In this document: piece after piece, positions 1-44,128 of the stretch
How the letters are laid out: every line of letters starts with the position of its first letter
How positions within the stretch are numbered: position 1 is the first letter of the stretch
Source of the DNA: Alistipes sp.
GTDB lineage: Bacteria; Bacteroidota; Bacteroidia; Bacteroidales; Rikenellaceae
Reading direction: 5' to 3'
Length of the DNA: 45,785 nt
Assembly (NCBI GenBank): GCA_017483225.1
Contig: JAFULF010000003.1
Coordinates: forward strand, 1-45,785
The notes under the pieces: model-generated
Told to the model about the DNA's origin: nothing
The model's database searches: none
Seen by the model: only the letters and a program-made list of their open reading frames with translations
Translations under genes and position numbers: made by a program

Positions 1-44
1 GTACAAAATATATTTAAAATTGAGTTCATATACCCACAAAAAAA

Positions 45-67
45 CTGTCGAAATAATCTCTCGACAG
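45..67 (-). terminator. Putative rho-independent terminator
   Basis: CTGTCGA (45-51) pairs with TCGACAG (61-67) around a 9-base loop. Read on the minus strand the stem is followed by seven T residues, from the A-run at 38-44. It would stop leftward transcription. No gene lies within 340 bases upstream on that strand, so its client is uncertain. Confidence 0.6.
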
Positions 68-74
68 TCTGTTT

Positions 75-137
75 AGGTCTCATTTTTGACCATTAAACAA
101 TTTTATCCCCTTTCGCAGGTCTCTTTTTGACCATTAA
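75..137 (+). repeat. Imperfect direct repeat, about 21 bases, two copies
   Basis: AGGTCTC, one optional A, TTTTTGACCATTAA occurs at 75-96 and again at 117-137, differing by a single-base indel. Each copy is followed by a T-rich tract. Function unknown. It could be a leftover of an insertion footprint or a repeated binding site. Confidence 0.5.
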
Positions 138-363
138 GCCGTTTTTTCTCATAGTGTGGTTGCTTTTTTATTATGTTAGTATAGGTTTCGGTGTTATGTT
201 TGCAGCAATATGCAGGGCGTATGTTACTCGTAGCAACAGACTGAACCAATTTACTTTACAAAGATATATAAAGTTGCAGAGTATGCAATAAAGTGAACGT
301 AACCAACACGAAAAAAGGGTTTAACGGGATGACGAGTTGTCGCCCGTCACAAAAAGAGAGGGA

Positions 364-379
364 GGCAAGTCCCCTTGCC
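364..379 (-). terminator. Weak hairpin beyond the mntP/pseudokinase transcript
   Basis: GGCAAG (364-369) and CTTGCC (374-379) form a 6-bp stem with a 4-base loop. On the minus strand it is followed by TCCCTCTC and then five T residues. It lies about 30 bases past the stop codon of the gene ending at 410. The spacing to the T-run is long, so this is a tentative call. Confidence 0.3.
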
Positions 380-409
380 ACGGGCCCCGCTTAACGCAGA
401 ATCGAGGCA

Positions 410-1348
410 TCACTCTATGGGACGACCGCAATAGTCATATCGCTGCACGCTGTCGCCAAAGCGGGCAAAGAAGATGCCCAGACAGTTGTCGAACTCTATA
501 TCGTGATAGGTGTTCGGGATAAGGTAACTGCCATCGGCGGTAATCACGCCGACACCCTCCTCCGTCTCGACAATGGCTCGCCCCTCGTAGAAGTCGGTAG
601 CCCACAGGTACTCTCCGGGCAGCCGCTCACCGCTATACACATCGACAAAGAAGTAGCGTTCATCCGCCAGCACCCGCATTATGCCATCCTGCGGAGTGTA
701 GCTCTCGAATGGCCCCGACACCCCTACAAGCGAGCGGTAGTCCGGCTCCGGCACCCTGACATCATCCGGCACAACCATATCGTGCAGCAGCGAGAAGTCA
801 TCCTTGCACCCCTCGCCGAAGCGGGCGTAGTAGTATCGCAGAGGGTGGAGGTGGCCATCATCCCCGACGATGAGGTTCTCCGGCCGCAGGTTGCCATGGG
901 TAACGCCCACACGCTCCATCTCCTGCCATAGCTCATCCAGCAGGCGGTGTTGCTCCGTGGCGGGATAGGTACACTCACGGCCAAACCTCTCCCCCGAAGG
1001 CAGCGGTTGCACAACCACATCGGCGAAGCACTCACGTCCGAGGCTGTCGATATAGCGCAGCTCGCCTCGCAACACTTTTATACTGCCCAGAATCGGTGAC
1101 GAGAGAGACTTCAATCGCTCCTCAATCTTGGCAGGCGTATCTATATACTCACTACGCAGCGGCACAGCGACAAGCAGACGCTCACCACCATCCCGCACCG
1201 CTATCGCCTCCGCAAAGCGGGATGTACGAGAGAGCTTTATCCGAGAGTCGGCACCTCGCTCGGCAACGATACCCCGCAGATGGTCAAACGACGAGCCGGG
1301 GCTTCGCATTGCTGCCGCCAAGGCTGTGATAGGAAAGTAGTTAGCCAT
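410..1348 (-). CDS. Pseudokinase-like protein with C-terminal WG-type repeats
   Basis: 312 residues. The N-terminal two thirds look like a degraded protein-kinase fold. The catalytic-loop segment reads HGNLRPEN (residues 151-158), keeping the shape of HRDLKPEN but with the catalytic Asp replaced by Asn. The segment after it has no DFG, and the expected VAIK lysine region reads VAVP (60-63). From about residue 230 the sequence resembles WG/KWG repeats (for example DGSYLIPNTYHDIEF), which usually mediate protein contacts. No signal peptide or membrane segment is seen. It begins 2 bases after mntP stops, so the two are almost certainly co-transcribed. A role in manganese homeostasis would be pure context inference. 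Substrate and partner are unknown. The fold call rests on motif reading only. Confidence 0.6.
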   Translation of the reverse strand: MANYFPITALAAAMRSPGSSFDHLRGIVAERGADSRIKLSRTSRFAEAIAVRDGGERLLVAVPLRSEYIDTPAKIEERLKSLSSPILGSIKVLRGELRYIDSLGRECFADVVVQPLPSGERFGRECTYPATEQHRLLDELWQEMERVGVTHGNLRPENLIVGDDGHLHPLRYYYARFGEGCKDDFSLLHDMVVPDDVRVPEPDYRSLVGVSGPFESYTPQDGIMRVLADERYFFVDVYSGERLPGEYLWATDFYEGRAIVETEEGVGVITADGSYLIPNTYHDIEFDNCLGIFFARFGDSVQRYDYCGRPIE

Positions 1349-1350
1349 AT

Positions 1351-1911
1351 CTACGCCAACAATGTATGCTCCACGAGGATTTTCAGACCCATAAGTACAA
1401 GCACCACACCACCGACAAACTCCGCCTTCGCCTTATAGCGACAGCCGAAGAGGTTGCCTATTTTCAAGCCTATGACCGAGAGTATGGCGGTGATGATGCC
1501 GATGGTTGCCACCGCCTGAAAGATATTGACACCAAGGAAAGCGAAAGAGATACCCACCGCCAGCGCATCAATGCTGGTGGCCACCGCCATCAGAAACATA
1601 CTCTTTGCCGAGAAGTCGGGGCTATGGCACACATCCCCCTTCGAGAGCGACTCCCGCACCATATTGGCACCTATGGCACCAAGCAGCAGGAAGGCTATCC
1701 AGTGGTCGATACTCGCCACCACGTCGGCAAAACTGATACCAAGGGCGTAGCCCAGCAGCGGCATCAACGCCTGAAAGCCTCCAAACCAGAGGCCCACACT
1801 TGCGGCGTGCTTCGGACGGATACGCCCGACCGAGAGCCCCTTACAGACCGACACCGCAAAGGCATCCATCGCAAGCCCTATGGCAATGATTACAATCTCC
1901 AAGTATGTCAT
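1351..1911 (-). CDS. mntP: Manganese efflux pump MntP
   Basis: 186 residues, the usual MntP size. The protein exports Mn2+ across the inner membrane. About six hydrophobic segments are visible. The two family motifs with acidic residues in membrane helices are present: AIGLAMDAFAVSVCKG (residues 11-26) near the N-terminus and AVATSIDALAVGISFAF in the second half, with the Asp residues important for transport in characterised homologues. It lies 59 bases downstream of the peptide transporter gene with a terminator hairpin between them, and 2 bases upstream of the pseudokinase gene. No yybP-ykoY riboswitch is recognisable in the short leader. Confidence 0.9.
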   Translation of the reverse strand: MTYLEIVIIAIGLAMDAFAVSVCKGLSVGRIRPKHAASVGLWFGGFQALMPLLGYALGISFADVVASIDHWIAFLLLGAIGANMVRESLSKGDVCHSPDFSAKSMFLMAVATSIDALAVGISFAFLGVNIFQAVATIGIITAILSVIGLKIGNLFGCRYKAKAEFVGGVVLVLMGLKILVEHTLLA

Positions 1912-1935
1912 AATTTCTCCTCGCTGTTAAATAAA

Positions 1936-1963
1936 CAGAGGCTGTCCGCTCGGGCAGCCTCTG
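1936..1963 (-). terminator. Rho-independent terminator of the POT transporter gene
   Basis: CAGAGGCTG (1936-1944) pairs perfectly with CAGCCTCTG (1955-1963). On the minus strand the stem is followed by TTTATTT. It sits 7 bases after the transporter stop codon and separates that gene from mntP, so mntP may rely on readthrough or on a promoter inside the 3' end of the transporter gene. Confidence 0.8.
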
Positions 1964-1970
1964 CAATTTC

Positions 1971-3521
1971 CTATTTTGTTGCGGCCTCCAACCTCTTCAT
2001 CATCACAAACATAAACAATGCTGAGAGAAGACAGAGGACAATAAATACCGACCAAACGACCGTCAGCGAGATGCCACCCCAGAGGAATCCGCCGACAGAT
2101 ACCAGAGCGTTACCGATAGCGGTGGCAACAAACCATCCACCCATCATCATACCCTTGTACTTCGGAGGTGCAACCTTCGATACGAAAGAGATACCCATTG
2201 GCGAGAGCAACAACTCGGCGAAGGTCAGGACGAGGTAGGTCATAATCAACCAATTTGCCGATACGAGCGGTGCTGCTGCGCCGGTCCGAACAGCCTCAGC
2301 CTGCGCATCCGGAGTAAGCAAGCCCTGCGAACCAAATGCCATAACCGCAAAACCCACCGCCGCAACGAGCATACCGTAAGCAATCTTACGTGGAGCAGAA
2401 GGCTCCTTGCCACGCTTTGCGAGCGCACCGAAGATAGCCAACGACACCGGAGTCAAAGCCACAACGTAGAATGGGTTAAACTGCTGGAAGATTGGAGCGT
2501 TCACCTCAACAGATGCATCGCCCACGTTCATTCCTTTACAAATAAGGTAGCCGACCGAAGCAGCAAGAGCTACGCCCGATATCGCCTTACCCTTTGCACT
2601 CTCGCTCTGAACCAACGAGAAGCCGGCATAAACAGCCACGATAACAAGAACGAGGTTCCAAACGCTGAACGCCATGCTCTGCAAGCCAAACGCCTCCTTA
2701 ACGGTGAACTCGTCAGCGAAGTATGTGAGGGTCAAACCGTTCTGGTGGAATGCCATCCAGAAGAAGATAACCACCGCAAATACAAGGCAGAGAGCCACGA
2801 TGCGAGCCTTGGTCTCGGCAGGAGTGAGGGTATCCTCAACCTGTGCAGCAGCGTTATTGGCACCCTTCTTACCGCCCTCAACGTGAGCGTACCAGTTGCG
2901 GCAAGCGAAGTAGATTAACATCGACACAATCAACGCCACGCAAGCAACTGCAAACGAGAAGTGGTAGGCATCGTTGCCCGAAAAGCCGAGCGAATCCTCC
3001 GCCCAACGCTTAATCTCAACAGCAGCCGTAGGTGCGAACAAAGCACCGATGTTGATTGCCATATAGAAGAGCGAGAATGCAGAGTCACGCTTATCGGCAT
3101 ATTTAGGGTCGTCGTAGAGGTTACCAACCATAACCTGCAAGTTACCCTTGAACAAGCCTGTACCGAGAGCGATAAAGAGCAAAGCACCGAGCATTGCAAC
3201 CATCGCCAAAGTTGTGGTCTCAGGGGTATCAACACCACCGAGCGGCAACGAGAGAAGAAGGTAGCCGACAAACATAATCGAGATACCGAGCTTAACCATC
3301 TTGCCGTAACCGAACTTGTCAGCCAAGATACCACCAAGAAGCGGCATAAAGTAAACAAGACCGAGGAATGTGCTGTAAATAGCACCTGCTACACCTGCGT
3401 CCAGACCGAAGTTAGCACGAAGGAAGAGGGCAAATACCGCCAACATTGTGTAGTAGCCGAAACGCTCGCCGGTATTGGCGAGGGCCAGCGCATAAAGGGC
3501 TTTTGGATGTCCTTTGAACAT
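1971..3521 (-). CDS. Proton-dependent oligopeptide transporter (POT/PTR family)
   Basis: 516 residues. Imports di- and tripeptides into the cytoplasm, coupled to protons. The start MFKGHPKALYALALANTGERFGYY carries the POT signature ExxERFxYY-type motif (here NTGERFGYY, residues 16-24) in the first membrane helix. About 12-14 hydrophobic helices follow, with a polar central loop near residues 215-230 and the conserved helix with FxxAINIGA (YMAINIGALF). Length is normal for the family. A well-formed promoter lies upstream (3588-3619). Its own terminator follows (1936-1963). Exact substrate range cannot be told from sequence. Confidence 0.92.
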   Translation of the reverse strand: MFKGHPKALYALALANTGERFGYYTMLAVFALFLRANFGLDAGVAGAIYSTFLGLVYFMPLLGGILADKFGYGKMVKLGISIMFVGYLLLSLPLGGVDTPETTTLAMVAMLGALLFIALGTGLFKGNLQVMVGNLYDDPKYADKRDSAFSLFYMAINIGALFAPTAAVEIKRWAEDSLGFSGNDAYHFSFAVACVALIVSMLIYFACRNWYAHVEGGKKGANNAAAQVEDTLTPAETKARIVALCLVFAVVIFFWMAFHQNGLTLTYFADEFTVKEAFGLQSMAFSVWNLVLVIVAVYAGFSLVQSESAKGKAISGVALAASVGYLICKGMNVGDASVEVNAPIFQQFNPFYVVALTPVSLAIFGALAKRGKEPSAPRKIAYGMLVAAVGFAVMAFGSQGLLTPDAQAEAVRTGAAAPLVSANWLIMTYLVLTFAELLLSPMGISFVSKVAPPKYKGMMMGGWFVATAIGNALVSVGGFLWGGISLTVVWSVFIVLCLLSALFMFVMMKRLEAATK

Positions 3522-3587
3522 AATTGTTTATAGGTTTTAGTTAAAAATTAAATCTCTTTTTGTCTTATTGTTACCACAAAAGACTTT

Positions 3588-3619
3588 CAAAGGTAGAAAT
3601 AAAAACCGAGAATCACAAA
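3588..3619 (-). promoter_or_regulatory. Bacteroidota-type promoter of the POT gene
   Basis: On the minus strand the -33 element TTTG (3616-3619) is separated by 20 bases from the -7 element TACCTTTG (3588-3595). This matches the Bacteroidota consensus closely. The transporter start codon is 67 bases downstream. Confidence 0.75.
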
Positions 3620-3866
3620 CTTCGATACCATACTTATATTTTACCGCCACCCGCTCCGCAACGGCAAGCCCTCACAACCACAACACGCAATGCGCTGATA
3701 ATTAAGGTGTTGCAAATAACAATCCGATATAATAAGAAGATGATGCACGATTTTTGTTGTAAAAATTTTGATTTTGAGGGAGATTTTTTTCGACAAATGT
3801 TTGCACAAATAAAATTTTGCCCTTATCTTTGCACCTGCAAACGAGACGGAAACGTCGCAATGCAAT
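3620..3866. other. Divergent intergenic region between POT gene and tRNA-Lys
   Basis: No gene is supported. It carries the upstream flank of the minus-strand POT promoter and the plus-strand tRNA promoter, with an AT-rich tract (3760-3820). Confidence 0.5.
3800..3831 (+). promoter_or_regulatory. Promoter of tRNA-Lys
   Basis: TTTG (3800-3803), 20 bases, then TATCTTTG (3824-3831): a near-perfect Bacteroidota promoter. It ends 35 bases before the mature tRNA. Confidence 0.8.
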
Positions 3867-3939
3867 GCCTCTTTAGCTCAGTTGGTAGAGCACGACACTC
3901 TTAATGTTGGGGTCCAGGGTTCGAGCCCCTGAGGGGGTA
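3867..3939 (+). tRNA. tRNA-Lys (anticodon CTT)
   Basis: A full cloverleaf can be drawn. The acceptor stem is GCCTCTT (3867-3873) with AGGGGGT (3932-3938). The D arm is GCTC/GAGC. The anticodon stem is CGACA/TGTTG with loop CTCTTAA, giving anticodon CTT at 3900-3902. The variable loop is 5 bases. The T arm is CAGGG-TTCGAGC-CCCTG (3915-3931). A3939 is the discriminator, and no CCA is encoded. Several G-U pairs occur in the acceptor stem. Its 3' end (CCTGAGGGGGTAC, 3928-3940) is repeated twice further right and is the likely integration target of the RM cassettes. Confidence 0.93.
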
Positions 3940-4101
3940 CTGAAAGCGAAAATCGAAAGGTTTTCGCTTTTTTGTTTCTGTGTGCTTGGCAATATGCCAA
4001 ATTTTCCCTAATTTTGAGGCAGGTTTTAGGGTATCTTAGTTTCGATGCAGAAACCGATACGAAACCAAGAGATAGATTGCGAAAACCAAATTTTGTATTT
4101 T
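3928..4101 (+). repeat. Left-end repeat A, copy 1 (cassette RM1)
   Basis: This block begins with the tRNA 3' end and runs through the terminator hairpin, a small palindrome TTGGCA-ATA-TGCCAA (3986-4000) and a tail ending near the EcoRI-like gene. A second copy lies at 6123-6295 with clear but imperfect identity. The palindrome is kept in copy 2 as TTGGTA-ATA-TGCCAA, where the changed base still allows a G-U pair. The two copies precede two unrelated RM systems, so they mark a shared element end rather than a gene duplication. Confidence 0.8.
3943..3973 (+). terminator. tRNA-Lys terminator
   Basis: AAAGCGAAAA (3943-3952) pairs with TTTTCGCTTT (3961-3970), and T residues continue to 3973. It lies directly after the tRNA and is part of repeat A, so the integrated element supplies or restores the tRNA terminator. 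Confidence 0.88.
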
Positions 4102-4143
4102 TTTGAGAGGTTAATAGATTATTTATGATTAGGATAAATATAT

Positions 4144-4986
4144 ATGGCTAAAAAGAATCAATCTAGACGATTAACTAATCAACACAAAGAATCACAAGGT
4201 GTTGTTGGTATATTTGGCGAAGAAGCTAAGTTACATGATACTGCTGTCGGAGAAGTTGCGCTATCCGTCATGGTTTCGCTAAAGAAAAAATATACTCAAC
4301 TAAAATTTAGGCATAGAGATAGTATTACAAAAAAAGAGATAAATAGCGCACTGAAAAATATAGATCCAACACTAGGTCAAACACTTTATGTGTCTAATGC
4401 TAGTATAATTCCTGATGGCGGAATTATTGAAGTCAAAGATGATAACGATAATTGGCGAATTGTATTAGTTACAGAGGCAAAACATCAAGGTAAGGATATA
4501 GAGAACATAAAAGCGGGAAAACTTGTAGGGAAAAATAATGATCAAGATTTGATGGCTGCAGGAAATGCAATTGAAAGATCTCATAAGAATATTTCAGAGA
4601 TTGCAAATTATATATTATCAGAATCGCATTTTCCATACATCCTTTTTCTAGAGGGATCTAATTTTTTAACTGAAACAATATCAGTAGTAAGGCCTGATGG
4701 CAGAGTTGTAAAGCTCGAGTATAATTCAGGGATGCTCAATAGGTTAGATAGACTTACTTCCGCAAACTACGGCATGCCGATAAATACCAACTTGTGTGAA
4801 AACAAATTTGTAAAGCACAAGGATAAGTCAATAATGCTTCAAGCTACATCAATATATACACAGGGAAAGGGTGGTAAATGGAGCGCTGAGGATATGACTA
4901 AAATTATGCTAGAAGTAGCAGAAACCTCTTTGCGTCTTTTAGGAAGTGATTTATTTAAACAATTAACAGCACAAACTAAAGATTAG
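4144..4986 (+). CDS. ecoRIR: Type II restriction endonuclease, EcoRI homologue (GAATTC)
   Basis: 280 residues. The sequence follows EcoRI along its whole length and keeps EcoRI residue numbering. Catalytic Pro90-Asp91 (IIPDGG), Glu111 and Lys113 (TEAKHQGKDI) are all present. The recognition segment MAAGNAIERSHKNI includes Glu144 and Arg145, and Arg200 is at the expected place. These are the residues known to cut and to read GAATTC, so an EcoRI isoschizomer is the natural call. The ATG start has an AGGA 8 bases upstream. The gene is very AT-rich and precedes its methyltransferase by 8 bases, the same order as in the E. coli plasmid system. The protein acts in the cytoplasm on unmodified incoming DNA. 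Confidence 0.95.
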   Translation: MAKKNQSRRLTNQHKESQGVVGIFGEEAKLHDTAVGEVALSVMVSLKKKYTQLKFRHRDSITKKEINSALKNIDPTLGQTLYVSNASIIPDGGIIEVKDDNDNWRIVLVTEAKHQGKDIENIKAGKLVGKNNDQDLMAAGNAIERSHKNISEIANYILSESHFPYILFLEGSNFLTETISVVRPDGRVVKLEYNSGMLNRLDRLTSANYGMPINTNLCENKFVKHKDKSIMLQATSIYTQGKGGKWSAEDMTKIMLEVAETSLRLLGSDLFKQLTAQTKD

Positions 4987-4994
4987 AATTTAGT

Positions 4995-5981
4995 ATGCCA
5001 AGGAGTGCAAATAACATACTATTGCAAAAAGCAAAAAAATCTAAGAGTGATGAATTTTATACATTACTTGAAGATATTGAAAGCGAATTGATTCATTACC
5101 CAAAATTTCAGTTCTCTGGAAAAGTTGTTTATTGTAACTGCGATGATCCTCGTAAAAGTAATTTTTATAAATATTTTGCGGTAAACTTTCATAAGCTCGG
5201 ACTTAGAAAGTTAATAGCTTCATGTTATAGCGAATCAAAAGAATCCAACTTGTTTAGTTCAAATGTTATGAGCAGGGGTGTATATTATGAATATACAGGT
5301 TTGGAAGGGGAAAAGGTTATCCCTGATACTTGCGATCTAACAAATTTTCAAGGAGATGGTGATTTTCGTAGTTTAGAAAGCATTGCACTATTAAAACAGG
5401 CAGATATTGTTGTTACTAATCCCCCATTTTCTTTATTTAGAGAATATATTTCTCAGTTAATAAGATATAACAAACAATTTTTAGTTATAGGAAACATTAA
5501 TGCAATAACATATAAGGAAATTTTTGGATTAATCCGAGAAAATAAGGTGTGGCTAGGTGTTAATTTAGGCAGAGGCATTTCGGGTTTTATAGTGCCACAA
5601 CATTATGAATTATATGGTACGGAGACAAAACTCGATACATTAGGCAATAGAATCATATCTCCCAATAATTGCCTTTGGTTAACTAATTTATATACTCCAA
5701 AACAAAATGAGTTTATAGCGTTAACAAAGCAATATGCAGGAAATGAATCGTTGTATCAACGGTACGACAACTATGATGGAATAAATGTGAATAGAACTCA
5801 AGATATTCCATCGGATTATGTCGGATATATGGGGGTCCCTATTACATTTCTACATAAATTTAACCCAGCACAATTTGAGATAGTAGGTTTTAGGAAAGGT
5901 GACGACGGTAAGGACCTCTCAATTAATGGGCGATGCCCATATTTCAGGATTCTAATTAGGCATAAGCAGAAGTATATATAA
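4995..5981 (+). CDS. ecoRIM: Adenine-specific DNA methyltransferase, M.EcoRI homologue
   Basis: 328 residues, close to M.EcoRI in length and colinear with it. It protects host GAATTC sites by N6-methylation of the inner adenine, using S-adenosylmethionine. Visible family segments are KKSKSDEFYT (residues 14-23), KVVYCNCDDPR (43-53), GDGDFRSLESI (120-130) and the catalytic motif TNPPFSLFRE (141-150), which has NPPF rather than DPPY as in M.EcoRI. ISPNNCLWLTNL and DLSINGRCPYFRILI near the C-terminus are also conserved. It starts 8 bases after the endonuclease stop. Its transcript ends at the terminator within repeat A copy 2 (6139-6169). Confidence 0.95.
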   Translation: MPRSANNILLQKAKKSKSDEFYTLLEDIESELIHYPKFQFSGKVVYCNCDDPRKSNFYKYFAVNFHKLGLRKLIASCYSESKESNLFSSNVMSRGVYYEYTGLEGEKVIPDTCDLTNFQGDGDFRSLESIALLKQADIVVTNPPFSLFREYISQLIRYNKQFLVIGNINAITYKEIFGLIRENKVWLGVNLGRGISGFIVPQHYELYGTETKLDTLGNRIISPNNCLWLTNLYTPKQNEFIALTKQYAGNESLYQRYDNYDGINVNRTQDIPSDYVGYMGVPITFLHKFNPAQFEIVGFRKGDDGKDLSINGRCPYFRILIRHKQKYI

Positions 5982-6014
5982 CACTATAAAGTTGCCATTA
6001 TTAACTCCGTTCTA

Positions 6015-6135
6015 TTTGGTTTCAAAACTTAGATACGATTTAGACAAAATTGACAAACCTATTTCAAACCATTATGGCAAAATCCTTGCTGTGTGCGCCT
6101 CTGGGCGGGTTTAATGCCACGACCTGAGGGGGTAC
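6015..6135 (+). repeat. Right-end repeat B, copy 1 (cassette RM1)
   Basis: Runs from TATTTGGTTTCAAAACTTAG to the core ending at 6135. It matches 8511-8636 almost base for base, with only a few substitutions and a longer G-run in the second copy. The last 39 bases (GCCTCT at 6097-6102, TTAATG at 6111-6116, then the core CCTGAGGGGGTAC) carry, in the same order, short pieces of tRNA-Lys: its 5' end, its anticodon-loop region and its 3' end. This may be a decayed or minimal tRNA copy, or chance. Confidence 0.8.
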
Positions 6136-6295
6136 TGAAAAGCGAAAATCGAAAGGTTTTCGCTTTTTTGTTTTTGCAAGCTTGGTAATATGCCAAATTT
6201 TCCCTAATTTTGAGGCAAGGTTTAGAGTGTTTTGTTGCAGCCCCGAACCTATACGAAACCAAGAGAGAAATTGTGAAAACCAAATTTCTGTATTG
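6123..6295 (+). repeat. Left-end repeat A, copy 2 (cassette RM2)
   Basis: Second copy of the 3928-4101 block. It starts at the core shared with repeat B copy 1 and ends just before the RM2 methyltransferase. The terminator hairpin and the palindrome are retained, while the tail (6235-6260) has diverged most. Confidence 0.8.
6139..6169 (+). terminator. Terminator within repeat A copy 2
   Basis: AAAGCGAAAA (6139-6148) pairs with TTTTCGCTTT (6157-6166), and T residues run on to 6169. It is the same hairpin as the tRNA-Lys terminator. Here it insulates RM2 from transcription coming out of RM1. Confidence 0.85.
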
Positions 6296-6321
6296 TGACT
6301 GATACATTTTTGGGAGAATAT

Positions 6322-7305
6322 ATGGAAGTACTGAAAAAAAATAGAGCGAGAAGAAATAGAACACTTACCATATCTTCAGAAGAAGTTATGGAATTGCAAT
6401 CACATGTACTATACCCGAAGAACATAAATAACCAAACTAATTTTATAAATCAGTTAGTTAATGCTGATATATTTGATATTATTGATTGTATCCCAGATGG
6501 CTCTGCAAATTTAATAATAATTGACCCTCCATATAATCTTACAAAAAACTTTAATTCTTCATCATTTACAGCTATATCAGATGATAGATACGAAGAGTAT
6601 CTAAGATCGTGGTTCCCAAAGGTGTGTGCTAAACTTGCCCCCAATGGATCTCTGTATATGTGCGGAGATTGGAAATGCTCATATATCCAACAGAGAGTAA
6701 TATCAGAGTATCTCACGATATTAAACAGAATTACTTGGCAAAGAGAAAAAGGACGTGGGGCTAGTGCAAATTGGAAAAATGGCATGGAAGATATTTGGTT
6801 TGCTGTAAAGTCTCCAAAAGACTATTATTTCAATGTTGATGCGGTTAAGATGAAGCGAAGAGTAATTGCACCTTACAAAGAAAATGGTAAACCTAAAGAT
6901 TGGCAAACAACGTCGGAAGGTAATATAAGGATAACATTTCCTTCAAACTTTTGGGATGATATAAGTATCCCTTTTTGGTCTATGCCTGAGAATACGGACC
7001 ACCCGACACAGAAGTCTGAAAAGTTAATTGCTAAACTTATTTTAGCCTCTTCAAAACCAGGCGATTTAGTTTTTGATCCTTTTGCCGGTAGTGGAACGAC
7101 ATGTGTTGTATCAAAAAAACTAGGAAGAAAATATCTTGGAGTGGAGATTGATGAAGAGTATTGTATATGGGGTGCAAAGAGATTGTTGCAAGCAAACAAT
7201 GACTCCGAGATACAAGGATATAGCGGAGGTTATTTTTGGGAACGTAACTCTCTAAATCTTCAAAAACAAGAAAACAGTATTAGAACTCAAACTTTATTTG
7301 AATAA
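6322..7305 (+). CDS. DNA amino-methyltransferase, beta class (RM2)
   Basis: 327 residues from the ATG at 6322, which has GGGAG 6-10 bases upstream; a GTG at 6295 would add 9 residues. The catalytic motif IDPPYN (residues 67-72) precedes the SAM-binding motif DPFAGSGTT near residue 250, with HPTQKSEKLI before it. This order defines beta-class N6-adenine or N4-cytosine methyltransferases, and DPPY favours adenine. Such enzymes modify the target of a partner endonuclease. The gene downstream starts 4 bases after this stop and is the presumed partner. The recognition sequence cannot be read from the protein. The gene is AT-rich, like its neighbours. Confidence 0.88.
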   Translation: MEVLKKNRARRNRTLTISSEEVMELQSHVLYPKNINNQTNFINQLVNADIFDIIDCIPDGSANLIIIDPPYNLTKNFNSSSFTAISDDRYEEYLRSWFPKVCAKLAPNGSLYMCGDWKCSYIQQRVISEYLTILNRITWQREKGRGASANWKNGMEDIWFAVKSPKDYYFNVDAVKMKRRVIAPYKENGKPKDWQTTSEGNIRITFPSNFWDDISIPFWSMPENTDHPTQKSEKLIAKLILASSKPGDLVFDPFAGSGTTCVVSKKLGRKYLGVEIDEEYCIWGAKRLLQANNDSEIQGYSGGYFWERNSLNLQKQENSIRTQTLFE

Positions 7306-7309
7306 ATGT

Positions 7310-8476
7310 ATGAACAAGAAAGCAAAAGAATTTGTTGAGTATATAATATCTAACAAAGCCCCTTACGGGGATAAATCTACAGTCATAACAGAATGTCAAG
7401 AGAAATTTCAACTAACGAAAGACAGATCTGTGTATGCATGTAAGGCTTTTGCTGTAAGGTTTAGTTGGTCTAAATCAGGTTCTTTTTCAAACACTATTCT
7501 TTCTTTATCGCATTTGCAGAAATACGATGACAGACCGTTTTTTGTAGTGTTAATACAACCTAATAAATCAAATACGATATATTTAGCAAACTCAACTTTT
7601 TTGTCCAAGGTTAGTCATAGTTCCAAGACCCTTGCTGTAGATAACATTCGTGGTAGTTTTAATGGAAGTGATATACTTAAAGTATTTGACGAAATTTCAA
7701 ATACTTCCGAAAACTTTACAAAATTATATACTATACATGAAGGTTTAGAATGGAATGACAATCTGCTTCGCTTAGTTGAAGCTTCATCTGCTATTCAACC
7801 AAAATCACAAAAGTTCCATCCAACAGGTGAACAGAGATTGAATATTTATAAGTCTATTGATAGAGCAAAGTCTTTTATTACATCAAAGAATTTTAGTGTT
7901 CTTGATGAGGATCTACAGCAAAGATGCAATGCTTGTAAAGAGGCGATATGGGTTGCTTCTAGAATAGACAATGTTAATATTAGAGGGCGTATAATTGAAG
8001 CCATGATTACGGCAAATGGCGATGAACGAGAGTCAATTATAAAAGCATTAAAAGCTGTAGAAATGGAATTGCCATTGTATGACACAAAGAATGAATTAGG
8101 AGACTATAATAGGAGTTTCGATAATGGGGATACTTATACTGATATCAAAACAAAGGTGATATATTTAGATTCTGCTCCTAAAGCATATAATGTCGATAAG
8201 TTTTTGGCTAAGATGTCAGAGGAAAACTCGTCATTTTTCTTCTTCTTTATTGGAATTGATGAGAATGGTATTTGCAGCACGAAACTTTGTTCAGTATATC
8301 ACAGCGAACTCATTGACAGTTGTATTGTACAGCATCATTGGGCAGGGCGTTCAACAAGGGGTGTTGTGCAGTTTGATGGAAAAGTAATCAATGCGATACT
8401 CAACGCTAAAGACTTTAAGAATAATATAAACAATAAAACCGCACAAGAGTACTTGGATGAGTTGTTGGCTAAATAA
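7310..8476 (+). CDS. Putative type II restriction endonuclease of RM2, family not recognised
   Basis: 388 residues from the ATG at 7310; a TTG at 7298 would overlap the methyltransferase. I do not recognise the family. It is called an endonuclease because it directly follows a solitary amino-methyltransferase inside the same cassette. The only nuclease-like motif is GDTYTDIKTKVIYLD (about residues 273-287), where D278-x-K280 could be the end of a PD-(D/E)XK site. The N-terminal half is conserved-looking (AFAVRFSWSKSGSFSNTILSLS; NIRGSFNGSD). No membrane segments or signal peptide are present. It is AT-rich and ends 35 bases before repeat B copy 2. Confidence 0.6.
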   Translation: MNKKAKEFVEYIISNKAPYGDKSTVITECQEKFQLTKDRSVYACKAFAVRFSWSKSGSFSNTILSLSHLQKYDDRPFFVVLIQPNKSNTIYLANSTFLSKVSHSSKTLAVDNIRGSFNGSDILKVFDEISNTSENFTKLYTIHEGLEWNDNLLRLVEASSAIQPKSQKFHPTGEQRLNIYKSIDRAKSFITSKNFSVLDEDLQQRCNACKEAIWVASRIDNVNIRGRIIEAMITANGDERESIIKALKAVEMELPLYDTKNELGDYNRSFDNGDTYTDIKTKVIYLDSAPKAYNVDKFLAKMSEENSSFFFFFIGIDENGICSTKLCSVYHSELIDSCIVQHHWAGRSTRGVVQFDGKVINAILNAKDFKNNINNKTAQEYLDELLAK

Positions 8477-8510
8477 ATTGGCTAAATAAAGTAGTATATT
8501 ACGACTAATC

Positions 8511-8636
8511 ATTTGGTTTTGAAAGTTAGACACGATTTAGACAAAATTGACAAACCTATTTCAAACCATTATAGCAAAATCCTTGCTGTGTGCGCCTCTG
8601 GGCGGGCTTAATGCCACGACCTGAGGGGGGGGGTAC
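8511..8636 (+). repeat. Right-end repeat B, copy 2 (cassette RM2)
   Basis: Second copy of 6015-6135. The core here reads CCTGA, nine G residues, TAC (8620-8636) instead of five G residues. Repeat A does not follow: the bases after the core (GGAAAGGTGATGG) do not match the A sequence. This is the right-hand limit of the recognisable array. Confidence 0.8.
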
Positions 8637-8826: not shown

Positions 8827-9702
8827 ATGACAACGGTTAATGATTTTCTATTTGCTTATTTTTACCAATTGGAGTGTGAGATAAATGCAGATTGCAGAGG
8901 CCTGGCCTCATTGAGGTTTCAGTCGGAGGAAGCAAACACCGATGAGGAGGTCAAGGCGTTCTTCAAGGCCTACATCACCTCGAACAATAGGCTGAAAGCG
9001 AGTGAGGTAGAGAGGCTTGTCATAAATCGGGGCAACAGCACCTTGGAGGTCAGTATGAACGACCTTGCACAATTTAGCATTTCGAGAGTTCTTTTGCCGA
9101 GCGAGCTGACCGACGAGATGAGGGCCGAGATTGCGGCTACAAAGAGGTCGGTATATACCAACCCCGACCTATATTTGCAGGTGAACGATGGCGACAGCCA
9201 TATCGACTACATATCCGTTGAGTTAAAAACCACCAAGACAAACCAAATCCCGGGGTCAAGCATCCAGCAGGTCAATCCCTCCGAGTGGGTGATATTCGTA
9301 AGGCACACCGACCGAGGGGTTATTGAGGTTGCTTGCGGCTTTTACATCAACTCCATCACAGAGCGATTGCCATTTCCGGACAGAAGTCCCAGACCCATCA
9401 TCGCATTCGACACGCTCAAAAAGTGGAACAGAGAGAGTCGCTGCGTGGATAATGGCACCCTGAGATACACTATCGACACCGAGGCGGAGGAGAGTCGTAT
9501 CAAGATTCTTAACAATTGGGAGCAAGTGCTGTGCGATGAGTGGTTAGAGACCATACAGAAGAGGCCTCACGCAGCAGAGAAGTGGTTTAACAATACGATT
9601 AGGATGTACACCCTGCAACTATTGAAGAGAGTCAAGGCCAACCCTCAACTGGCTGACGAGTTGATTAGCAGCTTGTCCGACAGCACAACACACTCCTGCT
9701 AA
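8827..9702 (+). CDS. Putative PD-(D/E)XK restriction endonuclease (RM3)
   Basis: 291 residues. The segment from TNPDLYLQV (residues 111-119) through DYISVELKTTKTNQIPGSS fits a PD...ELK nuclease site, with Asp114, Glu132 and Lys134 as candidate metal-binding and catalytic residues. The IPGSSIQQ stretch after the ELK occurs in several type II endonucleases, but I cannot name the specificity. It is convergent with a C5-cytosine methyltransferase 67 bases away, which makes it the likely partner enzyme. Codon use is richer in GC than RM1, RM2 and RM4. Start chosen at the ATG after AGGAGG. Confidence 0.7.
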   Translation: MTTVNDFLFAYFYQLECEINADCRGLASLRFQSEEANTDEEVKAFFKAYITSNNRLKASEVERLVINRGNSTLEVSMNDLAQFSISRVLLPSELTDEMRAEIAATKRSVYTNPDLYLQVNDGDSHIDYISVELKTTKTNQIPGSSIQQVNPSEWVIFVRHTDRGVIEVACGFYINSITERLPFPDRSPRPIIAFDTLKKWNRESRCVDNGTLRYTIDTEAEESRIKILNNWEQVLCDEWLETIQKRPHAAEKWFNNTIRMYTLQLLKRVKANPQLADELISSLSDSTTHSC

Positions 9703-9769
9703 GAGCCCCCCCTATCGGCTCCACCCCTCCAAAGAGAGGGTTTAATGCGAAGGGCAGGACATTGCGGGG

Positions 9770-11005
9770 CTACTTCTCGCTTCGGAAATAGTAATCCCAA
9801 TTCTGCTCTATCCGCTTGGCGATATGGTATGCCAACAGCGGAGGAACGGCATTTCCCACAAGTTTGTATCCGCACGACGGGCTGACGGCATACCTCCTGC
9901 CGCTCTGAATCACCAACTCATAGTCATCCGGAAAGGATTGGATTCTGGCACACTCCCGCACCGTCAGTCGCCTCTCGCATAGTCCGGCGGCAATCTCTGC
10001 ACAATGTCCGCCACCGTGCTCCGGCGACAGCCGCCTAAACTCAATGTTGCCGTGGTGTTCGGACCTGATGGTCGGGCCAACCGAATCCAACCGCACCTCG
10101 GTCTGCCCCTGACAGTGTGTGCCCATAAATTTAGCCTTCGAGTAGTATCTCTGCGAAGGGTCCTCGGTCATCTCCGGCTCACTCAGCCCGATAAAAGCAT
10201 CTGCGCACGTCACGTATGGCATACCCTCGATGCCGTGCGTCTTGTCGGGATAGGGGTTATATCTCGGCGGTATAACGTCACCGGTCAGTGCTTTGAGGGC
10301 ACGTTTCTTCAATGCGCTCTTCTTGAAGCCGAAGAATATAACACGGGCTCTGGATTGTGGCACTCCGTAATCGGCGGCATAGAGTACCTGCGCCGGCACG
10401 ACGACATACCCACCGTTGCAGGCATCTGCAAAATCCCTCTCAATAACCTCTTTCACATCGGCCAAATCCATCAATCCCTTCACATTCTCGGCAACAAACA
10501 GTTTGGGCTTGGTTATGGAGATGACATCACGCATCCACATATATAGCTGCCCCCTGCTCTCAATGGAGGGTTCACCCGCCTCCAAGACACCGCCGTCGTG
10601 GCTCCGTCGGGAGTCAAAGCCCTGACGTTTGCCCGCAATTGAGAAGTCCTGACAAGGGAATCCTCCGGTTACGACATCGACACCCTCGGGGAATATATCC
10701 TCGCCGGCACGGGCCCGCTTGACCAAATCGACAATGCTCCCCAAGCGGTACATATCGGAGATATCCCTCCCTCGTTTGTTTGAGAAGTAGGTTGTCCACG
10801 CACACTTTGCATCGCTCCGGATATCGTTTGCGAATATGGTATCAAATCCCGTCGGGGAGAGCAATGCCCAATCGCCATAATCCTCCTCTATCCAATCCGG
10901 ATGCATCGCTGTATTGATGGATTTTTTTAGGCAGGAGAAGCTGCCCTCAAAACCAATATCCATTCCTCCACAGCCGGAAAAGAGCGATATTACCCTGCGT
11001 GTCAT
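9770..11005 (-). CDS. DNA (cytosine-5-)-methyltransferase (RM3)
   Basis: 411 residues. Transfers a methyl group to C5 of cytosine in a specific DNA site. All main motifs are in order: motif I VISLFSGCGGMDIGF (residues 5-19); motif IV VTGGFPCQDFSIAGKRQGF with catalytic Cys118; motif VI AENVKGL (172-178); motif VIII GVPQSRARVIFFGF; and C-terminal motifs IX-X (RRLTVRECARIQSFPDDYE, YKLVGNAVPP). The variable region between VIII and IX, which sets the target, includes about 90 residues. It is convergent with the endonuclease ending at 9702. A TATCTTTG element on the minus strand (11031-11038) is a likely -7 box. Confidence 0.94.
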   Translation of the reverse strand: MTRRVISLFSGCGGMDIGFEGSFSCLKKSINTAMHPDWIEEDYGDWALLSPTGFDTIFANDIRSDAKCAWTTYFSNKRGRDISDMYRLGSIVDLVKRARAGEDIFPEGVDVVTGGFPCQDFSIAGKRQGFDSRRSHDGGVLEAGEPSIESRGQLYMWMRDVISITKPKLFVAENVKGLMDLADVKEVIERDFADACNGGYVVVPAQVLYAADYGVPQSRARVIFFGFKKSALKKRALKALTGDVIPPRYNPYPDKTHGIEGMPYVTCADAFIGLSEPEMTEDPSQRYYSKAKFMGTHCQGQTEVRLDSVGPTIRSEHHGNIEFRRLSPEHGGGHCAEIAAGLCERRLTVRECARIQSFPDDYELVIQSGRRYAVSPSCGYKLVGNAVPPLLAYHIAKRIEQNWDYYFRSEK

Positions 11006-13731: not shown

Positions 13732-14736
13732 CTACTCTTTTGTTAGGACATGTAAATATTCTGTTGTTGTATCTGCCAGATGATTACGGTTTTCCTTCTT
13801 GTCTGCCCGAAATCTCTGGTACTCTCTTTGAAATACTTGATATGAGCCGTATTTACTCATAATCTGTTCTATAACATCCAGTGACATTAACCCCTCATTA
13901 TTGTAGGAGAGCACAATATACCTAAATTTAGCATCACGAACCAAGTTTTCAAAAGATTGTTGCACCAATGCCTTACTACAATAGCTCGATTTTTTATATT
14001 CTCGCAACCCTGTCTTACCTTTGGGTGTAAATGGAATATATTCGGCAATAGTATTCAATAAGTGGTAGTTTGCACCATATTGACGAGCATTATATGGCGG
14101 GTCAAGATACAACACATCTCCGCTAATTCGTTTTATCAAAGTATTAGCATCTTCTTGATATACCTCATGTTCGTTGCTGTTCAACTGATAATTAGCAGGG
14201 GTTAAAACCAGATCCTTTTGTGCTGATTTTTTGAGTTGTTTTAAGAATGCACCATAAACAGATGCTGTATTTGCAAGTTTGTCAGCAGACTCTATCAGAC
14301 TACACAAAAGAAAATAATACATATCATCAGATATGATATCTTCCTTCTTCCAAGATTCGATAGTCGCTCTGACGGCATCTATTCTCCGACCATTACTATC
14401 AGAGAAATATTGTCTACCATTACCGCCACCAGAGCAATATTGAGTAAAGATAAAACCATCATCAACACCTTCAAGGGCGTTCAGTTTCTCAATATAACTA
14501 TCTTTATCCCCAATCTCCCTATGATTACCTATATAGTTTCGATTTAGCACATAACTATAATACTCCAAGTCATTCGATATAACCTTGCACACTTGTGTTT
14601 TGAAGTGACGACCGACAATACCGGTCCCAGCAAATATGTCACAGAATATAAGTTGCGACATATCTTCGCCGACAATTCCTTTTATAGTCTTGTCTATAAA
14701 ATCAAGCAATGAATATTTGGAGCCAATATAGTTCAT
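13732..14736 (-). CDS. D12-class N6-adenine DNA methyltransferase (RM4)
   Basis: 334 residues from the ATG at 14736. Upstream in-frame codons exist, but MNYIGSK is the family N-terminus and follows the endonuclease stop by only 5 bases. Motif X NYIGSKYSLLDFI (2-14), motif I CDIFAGTGIVGRHF (32-45) and motif IV LYLDPPYNARQYGANYHLLN (209-228) are in the order X-I-IV of alpha-class D12 enzymes such as M.NlaIII and M.FokI. DPPY and class point to adenine methylation. Since the adjacent nuclease resembles NlaIII/IceA, the target is probably CATG. AT-rich. Confidence 0.88.
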   Translation of the reverse strand: MNYIGSKYSLLDFIDKTIKGIVGEDMSQLIFCDIFAGTGIVGRHFKTQVCKVISNDLEYYSYVLNRNYIGNHREIGDKDSYIEKLNALEGVDDGFIFTQYCSGGGNGRQYFSDSNGRRIDAVRATIESWKKEDIISDDMYYFLLCSLIESADKLANTASVYGAFLKQLKKSAQKDLVLTPANYQLNSNEHEVYQEDANTLIKRISGDVLYLDPPYNARQYGANYHLLNTIAEYIPFTPKGKTGLREYKKSSYCSKALVQQSFENLVRDAKFRYIVLSYNNEGLMSLDVIEQIMSKYGSYQVFQREYQRFRADKKENRNHLADTTTEYLHVLTKE

Positions 14737-14741
14737 TATAA

Positions 14742-15410
14742 TTATTCCGCAGGATACAACTTCTTCATTATATACTCTGATGCCTCTTTTGATACTCTGG
14801 CAACACAACTTTTTCTATATGCAACAGGGTCGTATTGATAGCAACCCACACATCCTAACTCTTCGGTATAATTGCCATCTCCTTCATAAAAAGGGTATGG
14901 ATTGCCTTTGATATTTTGAGCATCCCATCTTTGACCTGTCATCTTACACTCTTTGCATATTTGACGCTTTGCATCATTTGCAGCTTTGCAAAGTGGCTGA
15001 AAATCCTCTAATAATTGTGTTGCAGGATTAGACACTCGCCAATCCTCTTTACGCCCATCTTTGTGGTCAATCTCTATTTTTGTATTTTCAGAAAAACCAC
15101 AAACTCCAAGCATTACACAACGTTGGGTCTTATAATAATCCCTAATATCCTTGCGGATATTTTGATTAAAAGTCTCCCCACTTCTAAAACCAACCACCCT
15201 TACAGCATCAATAGAATTGCCCTTTGTCCGTGATTTGTCGAACTCTAAAATATATTTCTTTGCCAAAGACGAACTTGCACGACACCAACTACCACCATTG
15301 CCCAATTGCAAATCCGCATACTCTCCAACAAACTCTGTCGAATATACCCATCGGCTCTCACCTCTCTCATTTGGACTTGCCAATTTGAGAAACAATTCAG
15401 TCTTTGTCAT
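14742..15410 (-). CDS. HNH restriction endonuclease, NlaIII/IceA-like (RM4)
   Basis: 222 residues. The central segment IEIDHKDGRK (113-122), followed by DFQPLCKAANDAKRQICKEC, gives an HNH-type metal-finger nuclease with His116 and Asn145. It has two CxxC pairs (Cys152/Cys155 and Cys187/Cys190) likely to hold zinc. The N-terminus TKTELFLKLASPNERGESRW, the SWCRASSSLAKKY block and GCVGCYQYDP resemble NlaIII and the Helicobacter IceA1 protein as I recall them. That family cuts CATG. The partner D12 methyltransferase is of the same kind as M.NlaIII. It starts 3 bases after the upstream methyltransferase stop, so the three RM4 genes form one transcription unit. Confidence 0.78.
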   Translation of the reverse strand: MTKTELFLKLASPNERGESRWVYSTEFVGEYADLQLGNGGSWCRASSSLAKKYILEFDKSRTKGNSIDAVRVVGFRSGETFNQNIRKDIRDYYKTQRCVMLGVCGFSENTKIEIDHKDGRKEDWRVSNPATQLLEDFQPLCKAANDAKRQICKECKMTGQRWDAQNIKGNPYPFYEGDGNYTEELGCVGCYQYDPVAYRKSCVARVSKEASEYIMKKLYPAE

Positions 15411-15413
15411 ATG

Positions 15414-16190
15414 TCACATCTTTTTGAATACAAATATATATTCGTGCTTAAACAAAAAATAATCACTCTTCAATGCTCGATATTTCCATATATCTTGTGC
15501 CCCCAGCTTCCCTCTATTACCTTCTATATTTTTAATAATAATACCCTTCATCTTTACTTTTAGATTTTGTTTGATGGCATTCATTATCAAGAAAGCTAAC
15601 GGAACAACTTCGCTCTTTTTATACACATCGCCTGCGACTATTGCAAAATAACCATTCTTTTTCAAGTATCTAAAACCATTGGTTATTGCAGCAACCAACT
15701 TCTCAATAAACAACCCGATATCGGATAGTCTCGACAAATCTCTATCATCCTCCGTAAACTTAACGATATCTAAATATGGAGGATGGGCAATCATAAAATC
15801 AACTTGCTGCTTATCGACTCTCTCCAAGCACTCTTCTATTGCTTCTGTAAACTCTTTCTTATTCGTAACATCTGTATTCTTTATTGTATAGTTAATCACA
15901 GAGCAATCTTTCATTTGGTCATTGACATAATCAATAATCTTCTCGTTAATATCAAATCCAATATAGTTTCGACACAACGCCTCGCACTCAAAAAGAGTCG
16001 TTCCGCTTCCCGAGAATAGCTCCAACACGACATCTCCGACATTCGTATATCGTCGAATCAACTGATTGGGAATCTGCGGCACGAAATTACCGTGGTAGAT
16101 ATTCTTATGTTTGCCATCTTTTGCCCGTTCCGGTATAAGCCATAAACTATCTACATTCAGGTCTATTTGCTTCCAATCTTCCATATCCAC
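15414..16190 (-). CDS. Additional DNA methyltransferase with HPPY motif (RM4)
   Basis: 258 residues. NFVPQIPNQLIRRYTNVGDVVLELFSGSGTT carries the SAM-binding motif I at residues 59-65 (FSGSGTT), and the catalytic motif IV reads AHPPYLD (135-141). The order I then IV and the His in place of Asp or Ser differ from the beta-class enzyme of RM2. It is the first gene of the RM4 unit, 3 bases before the HNH endonuclease. NlaIII-like systems usually need only the one adenine methyltransferase, so the job of this gene is open: a second strand or second site, or an independent epigenetic methylase. AT-rich. Confidence 0.75.
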   Translation of the reverse strand: MDMEDWKQIDLNVDSLWLIPERAKDGKHKNIYHGNFVPQIPNQLIRRYTNVGDVVLELFSGSGTTLFECEALCRNYIGFDINEKIIDYVNDQMKDCSVINYTIKNTDVTNKKEFTEAIEECLERVDKQQVDFMIAHPPYLDIVKFTEDDRDLSRLSDIGLFIEKLVAAITNGFRYLKKNGYFAIVAGDVYKKSEVVPLAFLIMNAIKQNLKVKMKGIIIKNIEGNRGKLGAQDIWKYRALKSDYFLFKHEYIFVFKKM

Positions 16191-43786: not shown

Positions 43787-44128
43787 CATATAATTCGTTG
43801 AATTGAGAAATTTGGGGCAAAATAATTGGCAGACAGGGGTTTTGTGAAATTCTGATTTTTGAAGGAATGCCAGCGAAAACCAACGTAATGCCAAGTTGTT
43901 CCAAAGCTGAGTAACCTATCCGTTACCATATGAAACAGATGGAAGAATACGGAAGTTCAGCAATGTAAACTATTGTATTATAACGGCTTTTGCAAAAGTT
44001 CCTGTAAAAATGATGGGTTACGGTTGAAAATCCCATGTTACCGTTTCTTCTGCGATGTTCCGACATATTTTGCGTAGCGGCTCATAACTCTACTGAAAGT
44101 ATTTTTGAACCTAAAAAAAGTAGCAGTT
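43787..44128. other. Intergenic region between ispG and the integrase gene
   Basis: No gene is supported. It carries several short GTTAC-type motifs (near 43922, 44020 and 44035), the ACGGT/ACCGT pair around 44023-44041, and the palindrome TTTTGCAAAA near 43988. Such spaced repeats in front of a tyrosine integrase gene are where attachment and arm-binding sites usually lie. The exact element boundary cannot be set from this window. Confidence 0.45.

Follow-up and report, generated by a model that had tools for sequence, protein, structure and literature searches.

How two unrelated restriction-modification (R-M) systems come to stand one behind the other, between the same pair of end repeats, at the 3' end of a single tRNA gene is the question raised by a stretch of DNA from Alistipes sp. 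(contig JAFULF010000003.1; 45,785 nt, the whole of which is referred to here as the window, and its genome as G000). The only tRNA gene called in the window by ARAGORN is tRNA-Lys(CTT), and 3' of it lie two tandem units, each of which runs from a left repeat (A) to a right repeat (B) and closes at a copy of the tRNA 3' core. An earlier note on this locus had proposed a tRNA-targeted family of R-M cassettes with defined ends and no recombinase. Based on a survey of 180 genomes of the genus, we consider it probable that the units are non-autonomous integrative cassettes which are moved by a tyrosine integrase supplied in trans.

Results

Two tandem units with the same pair of ends

Alignment bore out the layout described in the earlier note (Table 1). 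Repeat A (3928-4099 versus 6123-6294) is 85% identical between the two units (E 4.5e-50) and repeat B (6014-6132 versus 8511-8629) 95% identical, and the 13-bp core CCTGAGGGGGTAC is present in exact copies at 3928 and 6123. The third copy, at 8620-8636, is evident from its position and was missed by an ungapped core pattern, the third match of which (13486, minus strand, two mismatches) is at chance level. The order B1-core-A2 is that expected of a circular cassette. The units have a G+C content of 33.5% and 34.5%, respectively, as against 54.1% in window positions 1-3860 and 17001-45785.

Read from the left, a unit is composed of half a core, a hairpin with a T run (recognised by eye), a left arm, an operon, a right arm and a core; judged from its sequence, the hairpin would stop transcription arriving from the tRNA gene or from an upstream unit. 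The motif AACCTATN4AACC, i.e. two AACC elements 11 bp apart, occurs in all four unit ends of the window, once with a mismatch. When up to one mismatch is allowed, the window contains six matches (0.7 expected), four of which are the unit ends, and none of 100 shuffles reached six.

The payloads are unrelated, as had been claimed, unit 1 carrying EcoRI/M.EcoRI and unit 2 a different methylase and restriction endonuclease (REase) according to Pfam and PADLOC matches. The EcoRI domain is full-length (PF02963 positions 1-257 of 257) and the protein aligns with PDB 1ckq over 274 residues (437 bits). The supposed unknown nuclease of unit 2 can be assigned to a known family of type II REases. R-M names here and below rest on profile matches and homology. 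No open reading frame (ORF) of the two units matched a tyrosine recombinase.

Table 1. Features of the tRNA-Lys(CTT) array and of a further R-M locus in the window
Feature	Position	Strand	Remarks
tRNA-Lys(CTT), putative integration target	3867..3940	+	last 13 bases are core copy 1 (3928-3940)
A1, unit 1 left end	3941..4099	+	hairpin and T run at about 3943-3973 (terminator by eye), then left arm with AACCGATACGAAACC at 4052-4066
EcoRI-family restriction endonuclease (unit 1), 280 aa	4144..4986	+	PF02963, 477 bits
M.EcoRI-family adenine methyltransferase (unit 1), 328 aa	4995..5981	+	PF13651, 412 bits
B1, unit 1 right end	6014..6122	+	arm motif AACCTATTTCAAACC at 6056-6070
Core copy 2	6123..6135	+	exact; between B1 and A2
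A2, unit 2 left end	6136..6294	+	hairpin and T run, then arm motif AACCTATACGAAACC at 6246-6260
N6_N4 DNA methyltransferase (unit 2)	6322..7305	+	profile match
Type II restriction endonuclease (unit 2)	7310..8476	+	PADLOC REase_II model PDLC03461, 373 bits
B2, unit 2 right end	8511..8619	+	arm motif at 8553-8567
Core copy 3	8620..8636	+	G run longer
R-M locus: D12 methyltransferase, ICEA/NlaIII-like protein, N6_N4 methyltransferase	13732..16190	-	ends not recognisable

Distribution of the ends

BLAST (E<=1e-10) located B at 13 places in 10 of the 180 genus genomes, the next match being that of G002 at 3e-6, and a tRNA-Lys query matched 167 of the 180, although the weakest of these matches may be the tRNA-Lys(TTT) isoacceptor. 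A model of B gave no match in 294 other genomes drawn from the order (E<=1e-4), and B was found neither in a viral-contig set (exact pattern) nor in a plasmid set, the searches of these three sets being made with B and not with the A' and B' ends described below. B is thus far rarer than tRNA-Lys, which rules out that A and B are ordinary DNA flanking this tRNA gene, one of two explanations which the earlier note had set against its own. A pattern scan of an 84,980-species set revealed B in 10 stretches on nine contigs, all titled as Alistipes or Rikenellaceae metagenome-assembled genomes (MAGs); five of the titles name an animal, in each case a ruminant.

Inspection of tRNA-Lys loci led to the recognition of a second, related end family, A'/B', of which B' was found at 20 places in 18 of the 180 genomes; the left arm of A can be aligned with that of A', giving the consensus GAACCTATACNAAACCAAAAG and a third AACC. 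Model R1 gave 14 strong B places, 13 of them used to build it, and model R2 gave 21 places at E<=1e-6, 11 of them used to build it and 10 therefore new. An 83-bp weak match to R1 in G033:C14 was dropped, its surroundings being unrelated genes. Arrays are probably under-counted, because the contig ends within 700 bp downstream at 28 of the 96 tRNA-Lys sites examined.

As a separate observation, the first 150-300 bases after tRNA-Lys at L029, L030, L105 and other loci hold mini-units of about 140-160 bp, each closed by the 3'-terminal 20-22 bases of the tRNA and tandemly repeated in several genomes.

Complete units and their cargo

With a complete unit defined as having both ends on one contig, 18 were obtained from 15 genomes, five with A/B and the others with A'/B' ends; as the genomes sampled are not independent and sister species may share inherited insertions, the 18 units do not equal 18 events. 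A methyltransferase (MTase) is present in 16 of them (five typed by homology), representing 11 R-M types which include EcoRI, HincII, HaeIII, DpnII, MjaI, ICEA/NlaIII and IIG, and in all 18 the payload is directed from the left end to the right end. The proposed R-M cassette family therefore stands with two amendments, namely that there are two related end families and that two of the 18 units carry other cargo.

Besides EcoRI and the N6_N4 MTase with REase PDLC03461 in G000, the A/B units hold a HincII-family system (G002) and a C5 methylase with a 255-aa protein (G114 and G079:C11, the genes of the latter being 87% and 81% identical to their G114 counterparts); the 255-aa protein of G114 has no Pfam or PADLOC match. 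The A'/B' units carry HincII (G147), an HSDR_N/N6_Mtase protein (G103), an MmeI-like IIG enzyme (G105, the right end of which is a 56-bp partial match only, with no right core found), HaeIII with a C5 methylase (G156), MTase PDLC03305 with REase PDLC03524 (G159, and G092 by 90.7% DNA identity), DpnII (G127:C12, and G079:C17 by 92.1% DNA identity), an ICEA/NlaIII-type system (G153 and G088, through homology to window and G113 genes) and an MTase with MjaI (G125). The two A'/B' units that lack R-M genes encode two DUF488 proteins and a DuOB protein (G015) and a 134-aa protein without a Pfam match (G127:C17). The B' right ends of G159 (76% over 67 bp) and G079:C17 (75% over 91 bp) are diverged.

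The units are 0.5 to 3 kb in size and compact: in the 17 that were measured, with arm positions fixed by eye, -10 to 124 bp separate the left-arm motif from the first ORF and 8 to 111 bp the last stop from the right-arm motif. A strict match to the Bacteroides-type promoter-like motif (TTG, 16-20 bases, TAnnTTTG) occurs in nine of the 18 units, all of them with A'/B' ends, and in none of the five A/B units; 1000 mononucleotide shuffles gave 0.09 on average and at most 2.

Inside the units none of 45 ORFs (>=60 aa) matched five tyrosine-recombinase queries, serine recombinases not being queried separately; as a control, the same queries found 13 proteins in 1026 ORFs, self matches and one duplicate locus included. 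No transfer genes were found among the payloads searched.

Ten of the 18 units are located at tRNA-Lys or its array on the same contig, and in eight of these ten the right core was found by pattern. Four (G127:C12, G079:C17, G088 and G153) have no tRNA-Lys(CTT) within the 10-11 kb fetched, and for another four (G092, G125, G114 and G079:C11) the contig ends before a site can be assigned. In addition to the tRNA-targeted members originally proposed, the family has members at non-tRNA sites.

Left out of the 18 as partial were G153:C49, G157:C8, G098, G079:C1, G146, G031, G156:C37, G018 and G122; G113 (split over two contigs), G078, G096, G140, G142, G028 and G143; and G088:C15, G083, G117:C7 and the upstream B copies of G114 and G079. 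Also uncounted are R-M genes which stand beside tRNA-Lys without recognisable arms (G006 L111, G174 L114 and G023 L039, the last of these judged by eye alone).

The same cassette at different sites

Comparison of related units indicates that the same cassette can occupy several sites and that homology stops at the core. The ICEA/NlaIII cassette is common to G113, where it forms part of the tRNA-Lys array, and to G153 and G088, where it lies at non-tRNA sites. Between G153 and G113 the identity is 93.6% in the left piece (1680 bp) and 93.4% in the right piece (333 bp), the homology starting at about AGGGGGTAC and stopping at the core after B'. The DpnII cassette is shared by two non-tRNA sites, G127:C12 and G079:C17, over 2817 bp, and here too the core marks the limit of the homology, the outer left part not being common to both sites; in G127:C12 the insertion splits an apparent terminator hairpin and has CCCGAGAGGGAT on both sides. 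The PDLC03305/PDLC03524 cassette is shared by G159 and G092 over 1885 bp.

Payloads are also found with ends of the other family. The HincII R-M system is associated with B in G002 and with B' in G147 (REase 86% and MTase 79% identical), the homology stopping at the REase stop, and in G153:C49 a relative of the unit 2 MTase of the window (88.6% over 262 aa) lies behind tRNA-Lys and an A' arm. In the G092 array the end types are mixed.

A single ancient insertion followed by local duplication, the second explanation which had been set against the cassettes, is ruled out, since the payloads are unrelated and units occur singly in other genomes, those with other payloads being found in 14 further genomes. 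For G153 and G127, empty counterparts of the non-tRNA insertions were sought. The left flanks of the two insertions match 16 and 23 of 40 other genomes; the right flank was found in none of 26 relatives' loci fetched (mostly about 3.3 kb), so that the search yielded no clean empty site.

A prophage integrase at the same tRNA gene

The same tRNA gene is used by a prophage, the integrase of which has Arm-DNA-bind_5, Phage_int_SAM_5 and Phage_integrase domains and is encoded from about 441 bp after tRNA-Lys in G033, G117, G123, G143, G194 and G089, with short stubs at contig ends in G083 and G110. Its left end includes a stretch resembling B, at 91% over 34 nt in G117, G123, G080 and G088, 93% over 30 nt in G033 and G194, and 82% over 33 nt in G143, G083 and G110. 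A single contig of G096 contains, in order, the tRNA, the prophage left end (97.9% over 141 bp), a PD-T4-5-like gene, B and a core, the unit so bounded being 1.1 kb. In G143, defence-type genes come after phage O-like and DnaC-like genes and lead on to B and a core, with no core found between, and in G079:C11, 89 bp identical to the prophage left end lie 3' of the second B. On this evidence the prophage and the A/B cassettes apparently have the tRNA, the core and the right end in common, and this integrase is the likely helper for A/B units. The statement that there is no recombinase accordingly holds for the unit and probably not for the system, in which an integrase at the same tRNA gene is a plausible helper. 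The integrase was not found in viral contigs, and in phage records all matches were below 60% identity, the best among the matches listed being 37.7%.

Another prophage is located at tRNA-Lys(TTT) in G034:C1 (L149-L150); its integrase is 56% identical to the tRNA-Lys(CTT) one, and apparent Dnd genes are visible by eye toward its right side.

Other loci

The R-M locus at 13732-16190 of the window is homologous to the A'/B' cassette payload of G153 (74% over 2562 bp) and is probably a decayed cassette. Downstream of the third core, 8827-11005 holds a third R-M candidate, in which a C5 methylase (minus strand) faces a 291-aa protein without Pfam, PADLOC or PDB match; its G+C content is 51.6%, and A or B ends were not seen there. 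Near the right end of the window (44105-45364) there is a second arm-type integrase (PF17293, PF13102, PF00589). Elsewhere in the genus, at L028, L061 and L131, a recurring stretch, CATCACCAGCATCT ... GGGACTGC or GAGACCTGCCGATACGGGCAC, is found near small defence genes and, by eye, is possibly an RNA element.

Discussion

The defined ends, the exchange of payloads between them and the recurrence of one cassette at several sites would be accounted for if a tyrosine integrase of another element recognised the cassette arms. The unit would be excised as a small circle (B-core-A) and inserted at the 3' end of tRNA-Lys(CTT) or at a look-alike core, and repeated insertion at the restored tRNA end would give rise to tandem arrays; for A/B units the helper would likely be the prophage integrase using the same tRNA, and the R-M cargo would both defend the host and help to retain the cassette in place. 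The circles, the identity of the helper, any present activity and the route between cells are what we infer in this account.

Several observations weigh against it. Neither circles nor excision nor an empty site within a strain were seen. The right core was not found by pattern in G105 and G159, the non-tRNA sites have only part of the core in common, and in G088 and G079:C17 the left core is not recognisable. As to the helper, G000 (about 90% complete) contains no relative of the prophage integrase at E<=1e-80 and none of its four tyrosine recombinases (PF00589) adjoins the array; an integrase with left arm A or A' was not found. Complete B is missing in six integrase-bearing genomes, with no B found at E<=1e-10 in G033, G123, G194, G110 and G089 and just 37 bases of it retained in G117, and in G143 integrase and B are on separate contigs, so that B could close another element. 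Blocks made up of an AbiD gene, B and a core (L130, L131, L132) occur in three places at more than 96% identity with the left end absent and with no tRNA-Lys nearby in the stretch fetched. Finally, all 15 genomes with cassettes are assembled in multiple contigs, and the named B records are MAGs.

Each unit might instead be the leftover of a separate prophage or integrative and conjugative element (ICE) at tRNA-Lys from which all but the ends and a selected R-M system was deleted, the units themselves being immobile. Cis-mobilizable elements (CIMEs) do form by tandem accretion at a tRNA end, according to sections of PMC5704250, the G096 unit resembles a deletion derivative of the tRNA-Lys prophage, and the G143 element has defence-type genes beside its right end. 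Such an origin is nevertheless unlikely: the units are uniformly compact, within the margins given above, and contain no recognised phage or ICE genes, the similarity of A to the prophage left end is confined to a 33-bp hairpin stretch, and the same payload and ends are found at different loci.

In minimal mobile elements of transformable bacteria, payload exchange by homologous recombination has been proposed, and A and B could similarly be a stationary scaffold between which R-M payloads are swapped. Such exchange would fit the HincII system, which is enclosed by A/B in G002 and by A'/B' in G147, the change falling at the REase stop, and also the mixed end types of G092. We hold a scaffold of this kind to be very improbable, since recombination within A and B cannot place them at non-tRNA loci, and the same ends are found at such loci with unrelated flanks (G127:C12, G153:C34, G088:C11, G079:C17). 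Least credible of all is that the palindrome-like core (ACCCCCTGAGGGGGT) is the substrate of another recombinase, such as host Xer, a single-strand HUH transposase or an integron integrase: the targets do include a tRNA acceptor stem as well as, in the case of G127:C12, one arm of an apparent terminator hairpin, and host tyrosine recombinases are present in G000, but most tRNA insertions, like G127:C12 and G153:C34, have the core on either side, and it is flanked by paired direct-repeat arms, as is the core of arm-binding phage integrases.

The reading as cassettes mobilised in trans invites comparison with known elements, the closest kinds being CIMEs and integron cassettes, neither of which fits in full. 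Sections of PMC5704250 describe CIMEs as lacking integration genes, keeping both attachment (att) ends and accreting in tandem at one attachment site, and as decay products of ICEs and integrative and mobilizable elements (IMEs). The cassettes resemble such elements, of the Streptococcus ICESt1 type, in these three respects, having attL and attR and neither integration nor transfer genes; they differ in being uniform, compact and mostly R-M, and in that one and the same unit recurs at several loci. An ICE or IME carrying A and B was not encountered, though no systematic search was made, and the element that shares B resembles a prophage.

Integron cassette arrays consist of small units in one direction, often with defence genes, the recombinase being outside the cassette, and their attC sites are recombined by IntI at GTTRRRY. 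The present arrays share the small size, the single direction, the frequent defence genes and, probably, an external recombinase. Their junctions, in contrast, are at a tRNA-like core, which bounds the homology between the ICEA/NlaIII cassettes of G153 and G113, with the unit's own sequence at both ends; the array begins at a tRNA gene, and that of G000 is adjoined by no PF00589 protein. GTTGAAC, seen by eye in some arms, fits GTTRRRY but lies away from the boundary.

With the tRNA-Lys prophage the cassettes share the tRNA target, the core, a similar arm motif and, on the evidence of G096 and G143, the right end B; the left end differs, and the 18 units, with their R-M or small cargo, have none of the integrase, replication, packaging or virion genes that would be expected of a prophage or phage satellite. 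In R-M insertion with long target duplication, as summarised (after Furuta and Kobayashi) in part of Takahashi et al. (PMC3031569), a complete R-M system likewise moves and is flanked by direct repeats. Those repeats are long and variable duplications of the target, whereas the cassette ends are conserved, form part of the unit and recur with unrelated payloads and targets.

No such cassettes were recognised among the top results listed by searches of the open-access literature, preprints and most subscription papers excluded. We tentatively propose, at a confidence slightly short of even, that they constitute a new class of mobile element, namely minimal recombinase-free cassettes with dedicated attachment arms, a built-in terminator and mostly R-M cargo, which would use tRNA-targeting prophage integrases and have spread within one genus.

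Alistipes is a gut genus with few genetic tools, and the arms may offer a handle on an integrase system of this genus. In the parts of Oliveira et al. 2014 (PMC4176335) that bear on the matter, R-M turnover is found to be fast even though R-M systems are poorly represented in mobile elements, which leaves the question of how it comes about, and small integration hotspots are pointed to. Being small and carrying mostly complete R-M systems, the cassettes are a sequence-defined candidate vehicle for this turnover, one that escapes detection by methods which seek an integrase, and their end sequences are a probe with which the question can be tested directly. If the proposal is true, a tRNA gene would act like an integron platform without an integron, and the cassettes would be a hidden vehicle of R-M turnover.

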